Shown: piece by piece, positions 49,900 through 55,599 of the stretch
Numbering within the stretch: position 1 is the first letter of the stretch
How the letters are laid out: every line of letters starts with the position of its first letter
NCBI RefSeq assembly: GCF_005576615.1
Contig: NZ_CP040330.1
Location: 1,860,001-1,924,000, forward strand
Reading direction: 5' to 3'
DNA from: Natrinema versiforme
GTDB lineage: Archaea > Halobacteriota > Halobacteria > Halobacteriales > Natrialbaceae
Length of the DNA: 64,000 nucleotides
Notes under the pieces: generated by a model
Told to the model about the DNA's origin: nothing
Database searches by the model: none
The model's input: only the letters and a program-made list of their open reading frames with translations
Program-made: the position numbers and the translations under genes

Positions 49900-50283
49900 T
49901 CAGTGCTCGACGAGTTCGACCAGAATCCCGCCGGTGTCCGCCGGGTGCAAGAATGCCACCGAGTGGCCCCACGCGCCCGGTCGCGGCTCCTCGTCGATCA
50001 GCGTCACGTCGTGGTCGCGGACCGTCTCGAGGGCACCCTCGAGGTCGTCCGTCGCGAGCGCGAGGTGATGGACGCCCGCCCCGTCGTCCTCGAGGTAGCG
50101 CGAAATCGTCCCCTCCTCGAGCGGCTCGAGCAGTTCGAAATAGCCGTCGCCGCAGTCGAGGAAGACGACTCGCATGCCGTCGAACGCCTCCTCGTGGGCG
50201 ACCTCGAGGCCGAAAAGGTCGCCGTACAGTGCCGCGAGGTCCGCTGCGTCGTCGGTCGCGATCCCGGCGTGATCGAAGTGCAT
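49900..50283 (-). CDS. mce: Methylmalonyl-CoA epimerase
   Basis: 127 residues from ATG 50283. VOC (glyoxalase) fold in two beta-alpha-beta-beta-beta units with metal ligands His5 (MHFDHAGIATDD), Glu in GYFELLEP, His in GVHHLALATDD and Glu in GGILVELVEH. It interconverts (S)- and (R)-methylmalonyl-CoA in propionyl-CoA metabolism. The mutase large subunit lies at 53917-55599, separated by two unrelated genes on the same strand. Confidence 0.9.
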   Translation of the reverse strand: MHFDHAGIATDDAADLAALYGDLFGLEVAHEEAFDGMRVVFLDCGDGYFELLEPLEEGTISRYLEDDGAGVHHLALATDDLEGALETVRDHDVTLIDEEPRPGAWGHSVAFLHPADTGGILVELVEH

Positions 50284-50377
50284 CGTAATCGTACTGCGTG
50301 GAGGGGCCGTGTTACTGTTATGATTTTTCGTTGGATTCGATCCGGATCGAGCGACGGACTGTGGCGTCAGCGGCCGA

Positions 50378-51211
50378 TCACTCGAGCCCCAACTGCGCGG
50401 CCAGTCGATCCGAAACCCCGCCGCCGAGGTCGAACACGGCGCGCATCTCCTCGGGCGAGAGTTCGAAGTCGAAGATATCGGCGTTCGCCTCGATGTGTTC
50501 CCGACTCGCCGCCTTCGGAATGGCCGCGACGAAGGGGTGCTGGACGAGCCATCGCAACGCGACCTGTGCCGCCGACTTGCCGTATGGCTCCCCGATCGCC
50601 GCCAGCCGCTCGTCGCCGACGACATCGCCCTCCGCGAGTGGGCTGTACGCCGTCAGGAGGACCTCGTTCTCGAGACAGTACGCGAGGAGGTCATCGCGCC
50701 GGTGGAAGGGATGGTACTCCACCTGATTCGTGATGATCGGCGTTTCGGAACGGGCGATCGCGTCCTCGAGCCCGTCGACCCCGAAGTTGCTAATGCCGAT
50801 GTGGTCGACCAGCCCGTCACGTTGCAGGTCGTTCATCGCACCGATCGTCTCCGCGAGCGGCGCTTCGTCGCTCGGTCCGTGTAACAACAGGAGGTCGACG
50901 GTTTGGAGTTCGAGCCGCTCGAGGCTCGCCTGCGTGGATTCGCGCACGTCTGCGGGGGCCGCGTTGTCGGGGTGGACCTTCGTCACGACGAAGACGTCCT
51001 CGCGGTCGACCTCGCTTTCGGCGATCGCCCGGCCGACCGCGGCCTCGTTGTCGTACAGCTGGGCGGTGTCGACGTGTCGGTAGCCGACCGCCAGTGCGGT
51101 TTCGACGGCTCGCCGGCAGTCGTCGCCGGTCATGCGCGCAGTACCGAGCCCGAGCGCCGGGACCTCGGCCCCTTGCGCGATGACGGTCCCCGTCGTCGTA
51201 TTCGTGCTCAT
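50378..51211 (-). CDS. Aldo/keto reductase
   Basis: 277 residues from ATG 51211. The full catalytic tetrad is visible: Asp48 and Tyr53 (RHVDTAQLYDNEAAVG), Lys78 (VTKVHPDN) and His111 (LLLLHGPSD). NADPH site near residues 215-240 (AIPKAASREHIEANADIF). Reduces aldehydes, keto esters or sugars; 2,5-diketo-gluconate reductase-like. Lies between mce and the sugar dehydrogenase on the same strand with short gaps, but without evidence for a shared pathway. Confidence 0.92.
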   Translation of the reverse strand: MSTNTTTGTVIAQGAEVPALGLGTARMTGDDCRRAVETALAVGYRHVDTAQLYDNEAAVGRAIAESEVDREDVFVVTKVHPDNAAPADVRESTQASLERLELQTVDLLLLHGPSDEAPLAETIGAMNDLQRDGLVDHIGISNFGVDGLEDAIARSETPIITNQVEYHPFHRRDDLLAYCLENEVLLTAYSPLAEGDVVGDERLAAIGEPYGKSAAQVALRWLVQHPFVAAIPKAASREHIEANADIFDFELSPEEMRAVFDLGGGVSDRLAAQLGLE

Positions 51212-51355: not shown

Positions 51356-53620
51356 TTACGCGTCGGTCGCGTTGGCGTCGGCCTCGGTGTCGTTGGTCGC
51401 GGTATCGTTCATCCCGGTTTCGTTGTCCGCAGTCTCGTTGCCCTCGGCGATGGGCTCGTCCTGCGTGTCCTCCGTCGCGTTCTCGTCGGCTTCCTGCTCT
51501 TCGGGAGCCGCCTCGTCGTCCGTCTCGGGTGCCGAGAGGGAATCGCCCTCGTCCGGCGGGACGATCTGCATGACCGCGCCCGTGTCGCCTTCGGGAACGC
51601 CCTCCTGATTCGCGAGCACGTAGACGTTCCCGTCGTCGTCGTGACCGAACTGCCGGACGAAGTAGGGGAACGAGCCGTCCTCGGTGCCCGAAACTTGGAG
51701 GGCCTCCATGTCCCAGAGTTCGTCTCGAGGGACGACCTCCTGATCCGCGGCGTCCGCTCCGCCGCCATCTCCTGCGGTCTCGTTCATGCCGGCCGACTCG
51801 TTCATGCCGGCCGACTCGTTCATACCGGCCGACTCGTTCATACCGGCCGTTTCGTTCCCCTCGTCGATGGGCTCGTCCTGCGTGTCCTCCGTCGCGTTTT
51901 CGGGGGCTTCCGACTCGTTGGGGCTCATCCCTTCGGTCTCGTTGCCGCCGGCGTCGCCGCCCATCGATTCGCCGCCGTCTTCGGGCTCCGAGGCGGCGAG
52001 GAGCCGACCCGCGGGTTCCTGACGGGCCGGGTCGGCCGTCCAGTCACCGAAGACGTACTTGCCGTCTAGTTCCTCGATATCACCGGCTTCGTACACGTGG
52101 CCGCCGATGATCGTGATCCCGACCGGCTCGCCGTCGTAGACGTGCGGGTACTCGACGATCGGGTCCTGAAGCTCCTGTCCGTCGTAGGGCGCTTCGTCGG
52201 GGGCCGAGTCGGGACAGTCCTCCGGCGGATCGCTCGGGCTGTCCGTGCTAAAGCAGTGGGTCCCCTCCTTGATGTTCCAGCCGTAGTTGCCGCCGGCCTC
52301 GACGATGTTCGCCTCCTCGAAGAGGTCCTGCCCGGCGTCGGAGACGAACAGCCGGCCGTCGCTGTCGAACGAGATGCCGAACGGGTTTCGCATCCCCCAC
52401 GCGTAGTACTCGTCGCGGGCGTCGTCGACGTCGACCAGCGGGTTGTCGTCCGGAATGCCGTACGGCCGCTCGTCGCTCTCGACGTCGACGTCGATCCGGT
52501 GGACGCCGCCGAGCAGATTCTCGCTGACGTCCTGTCCGTTCCCGCCCGCGTTGTCGTCGTACCAGTCCTCGACGTGGCCCTCCATGTCGTCGTTCGCCCC
52601 GCCGCCGTCGCCCATCGGGACGTAGAGGTAGCCGTCGGGGCCGAACGCCATCGGCCCGGCGTCGTGGTTGTACTGGGGCTTCTGGAACTCCATCAGGACC
52701 CGTTCGGAGTCGGGGTCGGCCTGACTCATGTCCCCGTTCGCCTGATACTCGGAGACGACTTCGACGTGGCTCCAGCCCTCGGGCGTCTCGTCGTTCGGCG
52801 GGGCGCTGTAGTGGATGAAGAAGCGGCCGTTCTCCGCGAAGTCGGGGTGGAACTCGACGCCGAGCAGCCCCCGCTCGTCGTAGTCCTGATTCGGGTCCGC
52901 ATAGTCGCCCTCGAACGTCCCGAGTTCGACGAGCTGGTCGCTGACATCGAGGAACGGCTCGTCCTGCAGGCCGTCGTCAGTGACGACCCAGAGCTCGCCG
53001 GTCTGGTCGGCGACGAAGTACCGGTCCTCGTCTTCGTCCGCCACGGCGAAGTCCGTCGGCGCGGTCATTCCCTCCGCGAGCGTCTGGACGCCGATCTCCG
53101 TTCCCGGCTCGAAGAAGGCCTCCGCCTCACCGTCTCCGGACTCTTCGGCCGCTCCGTTACCGCCACCGCCGACCGAGACATCTCCGCGCATCGTCGCTCG
53201 ATGGGGCTCGCAGTAGTACTCGGCCATCTCGCTCGTCGCCTCGAACTCGAGGGACTGCGTCTCTCCCTGCTCGCTCATGAGTTCGGTCCGCTCGAGGTCC
53301 TCGCCCTCGCTGTCAACGATGACGAGGTTGTGGGCGGCACCGTCGAGGTTCTCCCACGTGATCTCGTAGGTGGTTCCCTCCTCGAGTTCCAGCGTCGGGT
53401 TCGTTTCGTCCGCGATTTCCTCGGGTGCGACGCCGATCCAGCCGCTCGTCTCGCCGCCGAGCTCGATCGACTCGGTCTCCTGGGCGAGTGCGACGTTGCC
53501 CAGACCGACGACCCCACCCGCGGCCGCGGCGGCTTGCAGTACGCGGCGGCGGGACGTCGATGGATAGTTGCCGGCCGACTCCGTTCCGGGGGTCGATCGC
53601 TCGTCGGGTTGCTCGCTCAT
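51356..53620 (-). CDS. Tat-exported cupredoxin-PQQ-type sugar dehydrogenase fusion with sequon repeats
   Basis: 754 residues. Tat signal TSRRRVLQAAAAAGGVVGLG (about 23-42). A cupredoxin-like domain (about 52-152) follows, with His in AAHNLVIV and Cys/His/Met in YYCEPHRATM. A six-bladed aldose/sorbosone dehydrogenase propeller (GSDH) starts near residue 175 (TAPTDFAVAD...), with ERGLLGVEFHPDF, AFGPDGYLYVPMGDGG and WGMRNPFGISFD. Residues about 560-625 insert repeats with N-E-S/T sequons (four 6-residue units AGMNES/T), and the tail (about 707-754) is again Asn-x-Thr-rich. The tandem 18-nt units are at 51781-51852. It likely oxidises sugars outside the cell and passes electrons to its own copper site. 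Confidence 0.88.
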   Translation of the reverse strand: MSEQPDERSTPGTESAGNYPSTSRRRVLQAAAAAGGVVGLGNVALAQETESIELGGETSGWIGVAPEEIADETNPTLELEEGTTYEITWENLDGAAHNLVIVDSEGEDLERTELMSEQGETQSLEFEATSEMAEYYCEPHRATMRGDVSVGGGGNGAAEESGDGEAEAFFEPGTEIGVQTLAEGMTAPTDFAVADEDEDRYFVADQTGELWVVTDDGLQDEPFLDVSDQLVELGTFEGDYADPNQDYDERGLLGVEFHPDFAENGRFFIHYSAPPNDETPEGWSHVEVVSEYQANGDMSQADPDSERVLMEFQKPQYNHDAGPMAFGPDGYLYVPMGDGGGANDDMEGHVEDWYDDNAGGNGQDVSENLLGGVHRIDVDVESDERPYGIPDDNPLVDVDDARDEYYAWGMRNPFGISFDSDGRLFVSDAGQDLFEEANIVEAGGNYGWNIKEGTHCFSTDSPSDPPEDCPDSAPDEAPYDGQELQDPIVEYPHVYDGEPVGITIIGGHVYEAGDIEELDGKYVFGDWTADPARQEPAGRLLAASEPEDGGESMGGDAGGNETEGMSPNESEAPENATEDTQDEPIDEGNETAGMNESAGMNESAGMNESAGMNETAGDGGGADAADQEVVPRDELWDMEALQVSGTEDGSFPYFVRQFGHDDDGNVYVLANQEGVPEGDTGAVMQIVPPDEGDSLSAPETDDEAAPEEQEADENATEDTQDEPIAEGNETADNETGMNDTATNDTEADANATDA
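51449..51481. repeat. 33-nt dispersed repeat, copy 1 (in the sugar dehydrogenase tail)
   Basis: Identical over 33 nt to 51866-51898; both encode N-A-T-E-D-T-Q-D-E-P-I. Marks duplication of the sequon-rich segment within the gene. Confidence 0.75.
51781..51852. repeat. Four tandem 18-nt units (sequon repeat)
   Basis: Unit ctcgttcatgccggccga, with a g-to-a change in units three and four. Encodes the hexapeptide repeat N-E-S-A-G-M on the minus strand. Confidence 0.85.
51866..51898. repeat. 33-nt dispersed repeat, copy 2 (in the sugar dehydrogenase insert)
   Basis: Identical to 51449-51481, about 0.4 kb away in the same gene and orientation. Confidence 0.75.

Positions 53621-53916: not shown

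Positions 53917-55599
<1,683 letters not shown>

Follow-up and report, generated by a model that had tools for sequence, protein, structure and literature searches.

A widespread haloarchaeal fusion of a cupredoxin and a GSDH propeller, a candidate copper-wired extracellular dehydrogenase

A 64,000-nucleotide stretch of the Natrinema versiforme genome (NCBI RefSeq assembly GCF_005576615.1, contig NZ_CP040330.1, positions 1,860,001 to 1,924,000; hereafter, the window) carries on its minus strand a confirmed open reading frame (ORF) for a protein of 754 amino acids that joins a copper-binding domain of the cupredoxin type to a propeller of the GSDH family. The initial annotation of this DNA had described the protein as a cupredoxin fused to a sugar dehydrogenase of the type that depends on pyrroloquinoline quinone (PQQ), and the fusion itself is borne out: both domains score above their Pfam cut-offs (Copper-bind, PF00127, residues 85-150, 39.3 bits against 21.2, E 8.9e-10; GSDH, PF07995, residues 191-454, 103.7 bits against 25, E 1.6e-29), and both folds appear in structural models. 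In the model of the whole protein, built from a 45-sequence alignment, a beta-sandwich (residues ~50-151) is followed by a propeller (~172-690), with a mean predicted local distance difference test score (pLDDT) of 72.3 and a predicted template modelling score (pTM) of 0.66; pLDDT drops below 50 at residues 1-47, 153-167, 351-362, 530-535, 549-628, and 701-754. The copper domain modelled alone reaches a mean pLDDT of 97.4. The twin-arginine translocation (Tat) signal proposed earlier is likewise predicted, at residues 22-46 (NCBIfam TIGR01409, 19.4 bits against 16.7), but the accompanying description of a surface module found no such backing, no lipobox or C-terminal membrane segment being seen by eye. 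The protein contains 189 Asp and Glu against 23 Lys and Arg, and only three cysteines, namely, C137 in the copper loop, and C456 and C469, which likely form a disulfide. All 14 N-x-S/T sequons fall within the disordered insert or the disordered tail (Table 1).

Table 1. Features of the cupredoxin-GSDH fusion gene, in window coordinates
Feature	Position	Strand	Basis
Cupredoxin-GSDH fusion gene, 754 amino acids	51356..53620	-	ORF and Pfam
Tat signal region, residues 1-46 (SRRRVLQ...ALAQ), predicted	53483..53620	-	TIGR01409; R24 and R25 conserved 47/47
Cupredoxin domain, residues 48-152	53165..53479	-	Pfam, model, solved-structure match
Copper ligand H97	53330..53332	-	39/40 rows
Copper loop C137-x2-H140-x3-M144	53189..53212	-	Each ligand 39/39; loop length 39/39
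Linker, residues 153-167	53120..53164	-	Model pLDDT < 50
GSDH propeller, first part, residues 168-545	51986..53119	-	Pfam; structural matches, Z ~37
GSDH propeller, last part, residues 634-690	51551..51721	-	Model strands 637-687; structural matches reach ~690
H319, putative equivalent of sGDH catalytic His144	52664..52666	-	48/48; aligned with NH of E. coli Asd
R411-N412, putative equivalents of sGDH Arg228-Asn229	52385..52390	-	48/48
G430-Q431, at position of calcium-binding backbone Gly247-Pro248	52328..52333	-	Both 48/48
C456 and C469, invariant cysteine pair	52214..52255	-	48/48 each
T528, at position of sGDH PQQ-binding Lys377	52037..52039	-	Sequence alignment; no Lys in 48
F654-V655-R656, at position of Arg406-x-Arg408	51653..51661	-	Sequence alignment; first Arg lost, second kept
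Disordered insert inside propeller, residues 549-628, GMNESA repeats and sequons	51737..51976	-	pLDDT < 50; 8/14 sequons at 560-613
Disordered C-terminal tail, residues 701-754	51359..51520	-	pLDDT < 50; other 6 sequons

Conservation was assessed in an alignment of 49 rows, of which 48 have the propeller columns and 39 or 40 the copper-domain columns; alignment A1 comprises 45 of these rows (leaving out L058, L062, and the two pieces into which the L021 gene is broken), and A2 the 39 rows that bear a copper domain. The predicted cupredoxin fold, together with the conserved ligands H97 (39 of the 40 rows with this column), C137, H140, and M144 (39 of 39 each), points to a type-1 copper site. 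The earlier reading of the copper-site pattern thus stands with regard to the ligands, but the spacing requires correction: the loop is C137-EP-H140-RAT-M144, that is, C-x2-H-x3-M instead of four residues before the methionine, and has the same eight-residue length in all 39 loop-bearing rows of the 49-row alignment. Given the Pfam E-values and this conservation of the ligands, chance or an annotation artefact can be ruled out as an explanation of the fusion.

Among 999 aligned solved chains, the best match of the copper domain is residues 25-132 of 2dv6 (Z 16.2, root-mean-square deviation (rmsd) 1.6, 100 residues, 28% identity), well ahead of rusticyanin (Z ~12) and azurins (~11). This is the extra N-terminal cupredoxin of a three-domain copper nitrite reductase from Hyphomicrobium (2dv6, 6tfo, 6tfd). 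There is thus precedent for the fold and for its service as an enzyme's additional domain, although the partner there is a copper nitrite reductase and here a propeller. Haloarchaeal halocyanins contain a copper domain of the same kind, as indicated by a match to the halocyanin-domain model TIGR03102 that stays below the cut-off (35.3 bits against 93.8). Unlike the protein in the window, halocyanins are described in PMC3403918 as stand-alone carriers or as fused to an oxidase subunit, and not to a propeller.

Membership of the propeller in the GSDH family is supported by homology: in addition to the PF07995 match, the model predicts six blades and superimposes on solved sugar dehydrogenases of the family at Z ~37 (7cgz, Z 37.3, rmsd 2.6, 335 residues; 2ism, Z 37.1, rmsd 2.5, 318 residues; 2g8s, Z 36.7, rmsd 2.9, 338 residues). 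The match to the TIGR03606 model, for the glucose/sorbosone family of PQQ-dependent dehydrogenases, does not pass the cut-off (71 bits against 434.55). Hedgehog-interacting protein (HHIP) is a signalling antagonist, and it is both the nearest solved sequence (E 2.5e-26, followed by sGDH at 1.9e-14) and the top Foldseek match (6.6e-25); structurally, HHIP (7pgm, Z 37.0, rmsd 2.9, 354 residues) ties with 7cgz, 2ism, 7cdy, and 2g8s at Z ~37, and sGDH is lower, at 30-31. Segment searches against solved structures aligned only designed propellers and HHIP and gave no help for residue mapping. The equivalences to sGDH come from a sequence alignment to Escherichia coli Asd, with the roles of the residues taken from PMC6881789 and PMC6881810. 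In that alignment, H319 corresponds to the catalytic His144, and R411-N412 to Arg228-Asn229, which contact the quinone oxygens; all three are invariant in 48 of 48 rows. At the calcium loop, G430, at the position of Gly247, is also invariant (48/48) and Q431 replaces Pro248, the calcium ligands being backbone atoms that cannot be judged from sequence. In 20 further homologues inspected by eye (3 from the order Halobacteriales, 13 from archaea elsewhere in the phylum, and 4 encoded on bacterial plasmids), the His and the Arg-Asn pair are present in all 20.

These residues bear directly on the possibility that the propeller is a non-enzymatic binding module similar to HHIP, for instance, for a surface glycan, with the copper domain acting alone. 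The primacy of HHIP among the sequence and Foldseek matches speaks for this possibility, as does the lack of part of the PQQ clamp throughout the branch (see below). However, the site that reads R-N in 48 of 48 rows of the alignment reads H-D in HHIP itself; the HHIP-like H-D was not found at this site in any of these rows. A module that only binds would have no need of an invariant His and Arg-Asn pair, nor does pure binding sit well with the repeated association with a redox domain, and we therefore regard this explanation as unlikely.

The propeller also resembles the soluble PQQ-dependent glucose and aldose sugar dehydrogenases (Acinetobacter calcoaceticus sGDH, E. coli YliI/Asd, Pyrobaculum aerophilum Asd) in its six blades, with Z values from 30 to 37, and in the catalytic His, the Arg-Asn pair, and the calcium-loop Gly at matching alignment positions. 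It differs from these enzymes in the absence of equivalents of Lys377 and Arg406, in a segment, GHVEDWYD..GGNGQD, that is largely missing from E. coli Asd, in the invariant cysteine pair, in the attached cupredoxin, and in residing in a host in which PQQ synthesis genes were not found. In architecture, a parallel exists in CcPDH, a pyranose dehydrogenase of fungal origin (AA8 cytochrome b - AA12 PQQ propeller - CBM1), which likewise carries an N-terminal one-electron carrier on a PQQ-type propeller and likewise lacks Lys377 (PMC6881789); its carrier is haem b instead of copper, it is eukaryotic, and its PQQ domain (6jt5) shares 14% identity with the fusion propeller over 327 residues, at Z 24.7. 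The fusion is thus a variant of the theme of a dehydrogenase with an attached one-electron carrier.

The fusion is real, widespread in haloarchaea, and already annotated, and no characterization of it was found. The protein is matched at E 1e-10 in at least 178 of the 243 genomes of the order; in at least about 120 of the 243 (a hand count), the best E is below 1e-60, which we read as propeller matches because, in the N. versiforme genome, matches confined to the copper domain stop at 4e-23. A single match extends across both domains in at least 47 genomes among the matches listed. The genome counts for the order and for the phylum are lower bounds, with at most four and three candidates, respectively, scored per genome. 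Fusions in the plasmid collection, such as H1 of Halostagnicola larsenii, are already labelled 'PQQ-dependent sugar dehydrogenase'. In the open-access literature, searched with narrow terms, the cupredoxin-GSDH fusion was not found described, and a description elsewhere is possible.

Several fusions show individual peculiarities. The two from Natrialba (L053, L054) are lengthened within the propeller by an additional stretch of some 70-90 residues, and Halostagnicola sp. A-GB9-2 (L059) encodes two tandem copies. At L021 (1459-3294), the copper domain and the propeller are in separate successive ORFs with a TGA stop inside the match, suggestive of a broken or split fusion.

Our preferred reading, to which we assign a probability of about 0.5, is that the protein is a copper-wired extracellular dehydrogenase in which a GSDH propeller, with PQQ and calcium as the likeliest cofactors, passes electrons to a tethered type-1 copper. 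The analysis establishes the two domains and their folds, the Tat signal, the conserved copper ligands, the conserved His/Arg/Asn centre, and the recurrence of the pair; the cofactor, the class of substrate, the path and direction of the electrons, and their final acceptor are inferred. The Tat pathway would export the protein; the H319/R411/N412 centre would oxidize an extracellular sugar or a related compound; electrons would pass one at a time from the propeller to the plastocyanin-like copper domain; and the copper would hand them to diffusible halocyanins or to a haem-copper oxidase. PQQ, together with calcium, would be taken from the environment, as suggested by the failure to find the known synthesis genes. 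The word 'oxidase', which had been applied to this protein, is not appropriate: neither domain found is oxygen-reducing, so the enzyme would be a dehydrogenase that hands its electrons on. Halocyanins are predicted carriers to terminal oxidases (PMC3403918), and cupredoxins, not as fusions, have been listed among the possible acceptors for GSDH proteins of ammonia-oxidizing archaea (PMC6657660). Genes of the haem-copper oxidase family (PF00115) are found above the cut-off at seven places in the N. versiforme genome.

Several observations weigh against this reading, some of which concern PQQ. At the position of Lys377, which serves the C-7 carboxylate of PQQ in sGDH, the alignment has T in 34, S in 12, N in 1, and A in 1 of the 48 rows, and never Lys; at the Arg406 position, near the C-terminus, Phe, Leu, or Tyr is found, with Arg in 0 of 47 rows; the putative Arg408 equivalent, R656 in the window protein, varies, with Arg in 34 of 46. 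In the 20 further homologues, the Lys377 and Arg406 equivalents appear by eye to be missing from all 20, and that of Arg408 is seen in only 3. Accordingly, the earlier designation of a PQQ-type propeller is supported by the core, in which His, Arg, and Asn are kept, and not by the clamp, in which the Lys377 and Arg406 equivalents are lost in all scorable rows. R656 was considered as a marker of copper-fused proteins and rejected, being present in 25 of 37 fused rows and in 7 of 7 scorable unfused ones.

None of the three PQQ synthesis proteins that were sought scored above the cut-off in any of the 243 genomes of the order, N. versiforme included, so the source of the cofactor, queried in the initial annotation, is a genuine question. 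For PqqC, two weak matches (19 bits) among the 243 genomes, neither of them in N. versiforme, were judged spurious; the absence is meaningful because the profile finds the gene on Sinorhizobium meliloti pSymB at 428 bits, and the profile matched 0 of 14 control genomes. The PqqB and PqqE profiles, which were run without a positive control, also remained below their cut-offs in all 243 genomes, with weaker matches to PqqB in 232 (41 bits against 245 in N. versiforme) and to PqqE in 161 (two in N. versiforme, 106 and 102 bits against 381). By our judgement, these weak matches are related enzymes, the PqqE-like ones being other radical-SAM enzymes. Synthesis of PQQ by the known genes in N. versiforme was therefore rejected; a non-homologous pathway may exist in the host. 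A PqqB-like protein scoring 97-124 bits (cut-off 245) is present in eight other genomes (L039-L044, G108, G171) that have no PqqC match, and no other pqq-like genes were seen by eye in the two neighbourhoods inspected, around the PqqB-like genes of L039 and L043.

The remaining points on the same side are of other kinds. The model, with its pTM of 0.66 and a linker of pLDDT below 50, does not fix the position of one domain against the other; many propeller relatives lack a copper domain; no activity data on the fusion enzyme were found in the literature; and, as stated in PMC4766312, the enzyme has not been characterized in Halobacteria to the knowledge of its authors.

The propeller could accordingly work as outlined with a cofactor other than PQQ, in which case the whole HHIP-like branch would not be PQQ-dependent. 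Two of the three basic residues that bind the PQQ carboxylates are missing in every scored row, PqqC, PqqB, and PqqE are not detected above the cut-off in the order (nor is PqqC in the 20 genomes tested from the rest of the phylum), and another cofactor has been suggested for the predicted PQQ-domain proteins of Methanosarcina barkeri, in which PQQ genes were not found (PMC6315138). However, the His, Arg, and Asn that would touch the reactive quinone are invariant; the fungal enzyme binds PQQ despite having no Lys377, so the PQQ clamp can be rebuilt with other residues; and PQQ can be scavenged, as stated for E. coli (PMC6881789). With the known synthesis genes not found, uptake of PQQ made elsewhere would be the simplest way for the host to obtain it, provided that PQQ is the cofactor. 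We accordingly consider PQQ binding by the propeller plausible and a different cofactor rather unlikely, and treat 'PQQ-dependent' as a plausible hypothesis for the fusion family instead of an established label. The question matters because many haloarchaeal proteins are named 'PQQ-dependent sugar dehydrogenase', although none of the 243 genomes has PqqC above the cut-off and the pocket lacks part of the clamp. The attached copper offers a built-in reporter, the blue colour of which should bleach with the right substrate and cofactor; the answer would establish either PQQ scavenging in these archaea or another cofactor across the annotated GSDH branch.

The recurrence of the pair beyond haloarchaea, together with the cofactor puzzle, adds to the interest of the fusion. 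At the level of the phylum, a match at 1e-30 occurs in at least 50 of 294 genomes, at least 22 of which lie outside the order, and methyl-coenzyme M reductase alpha is present in 19 of the 20 tested matching genomes outside the order, which identifies these 19 hosts as methanogens or their relatives. Among 13 GSDH loci from these genomes (one per genome, all with the reductase gene), the copper domain is N-terminal in three (L077, L078, L085), C-terminal in three (L080, L081, L084), and undetected by motif in seven. The copper loops of the six fusions are C-x2-H-x2-M, one residue shorter than the haloarchaeal loop. The fusion sits on one contig with the reductase gene in two genomes, G353 and G457, which makes contamination unlikely there. 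What is new here is that the pairing also occurs in archaea of the same phylum that possess methyl-coenzyme M reductase. In the fusions at L077 and L085, a DUF7282 domain separates the copper domain from the propeller, and the L085 protein ends in a PGF-CTERM sorting motif.

On a tree of 64 propellers (L021 halves, L058, L062, and L096 omitted, and E. coli Asd not included), the three copper states, N-terminal, C-terminal, and none, require at least six changes, and the starred branches alone force four (N) and five (none); these counts are approximate because the tree was built quickly and has several long branches. The group with a C-terminal copper domain forms one clade. States were assigned by motif search, with Pfam confirming presence at L077, L078, L084, and L085 and absence at L083, L086, L088, and L093; for L080 and L081, the assignment relies on the motif and close similarity to L084. 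The cupredoxin-GSDH pairing has thus been gained or lost repeatedly, gains and losses not being separable on this tree. Such repetition, with the copper domain at either end and with copper loops that differ, would be difficult to account for if the two parts did not cooperate, and so argues for a functional link; the occurrence of both domain orders is also consistent with electrons passing from one domain to the other.

In archaea with methyl-coenzyme M reductase, nevertheless, a high-potential chain of copper and PQQ is unexpected, so these relatives also count against the copper-wired dehydrogenase. They bring up the reverse direction of electron flow, in which the copper would take electrons from outside and the propeller would serve as a reductase or relay, as proposed for cupredoxins in direct interspecies electron transfer. 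Such a role would suit hosts that have no evident oxidant, and separate cupredoxin and PQQ-domain proteins of M. barkeri are induced during growth of this kind (PMC6315138). The known potentials of cupredoxins and PQQ are, however, too positive for electron transfer to methanophenazine, even if cupredoxins are tunable (PMC6315138), and N. versiforme possesses members of the haem-copper oxidase family; we consider reverse flow very improbable. A broader extension of the copper-wired dehydrogenase, possible in our view but doubtful, is a family of such enzymes that was assembled repeatedly in one archaeal phylum, both in aerobic haloarchaea and in methanogen-like archaea, and works without self-made PQQ, using either scavenged PQQ or another cofactor in a rebuilt pocket that retains only the His/Arg/Asn core. 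For anaerobes, the same cofactor question arises from the copper fusions of hosts with methyl-coenzyme M reductase, in which, if this proposal is true, the protein would be a copper-based redox enzyme acting outside the cells of anaerobes.

The window gene is flanked, by eye, by a methylmalonyl-CoA mutase gene (53917-55599) and an epimerase gene (within 49900-50625), and in a comparison of 19 named loci, which included paralogue loci and loci with short flanks, both flank the fusion in 10. These neighbours were set aside as a clue to function, no biochemical link being seen, and taken as inherited gene order.

Elsewhere in the N. versiforme genome (99.97% complete), two proteins resemble PQQ-dependent alcohol dehydrogenases, neither of which reaches the curated TIGR03075 cut-off (three matches, two of which are pieces of one gene). 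A second copy of the cupredoxin-GSDH fusion adjoins one of their genes, and the other is followed by a gene whose product has a single Pfam copper domain plus a second cupredoxin-like stretch in which no Cys ligand was seen by eye. Quinoprotein-like enzymes beside or joined to cupredoxins are thus a recurring theme of this genome. Directly upstream of such dehydrogenase genes lies a gene for a conserved protein of ~300 amino acids with no Pfam or NCBIfam match at 0.001 (L069 7393-8331, plus strand; homologues at L050, L064, and L065), which the product of L071 1589-2491 (plus strand) resembles by eye. The L069 protein starts in a Tat-like manner by eye, and the neighbouring dehydrogenases seem to be without signals. 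The dehydrogenase-like proteins themselves, at L069 8347-10449 and L071 2498-4207 (both plus strand and outside the window), contain a WDYD motif, a pattern of the lanthanide type known from XoxF enzymes; the L071 protein also has an adjacent Cys pair, and lanthanide dependence of the two enzymes is possible.

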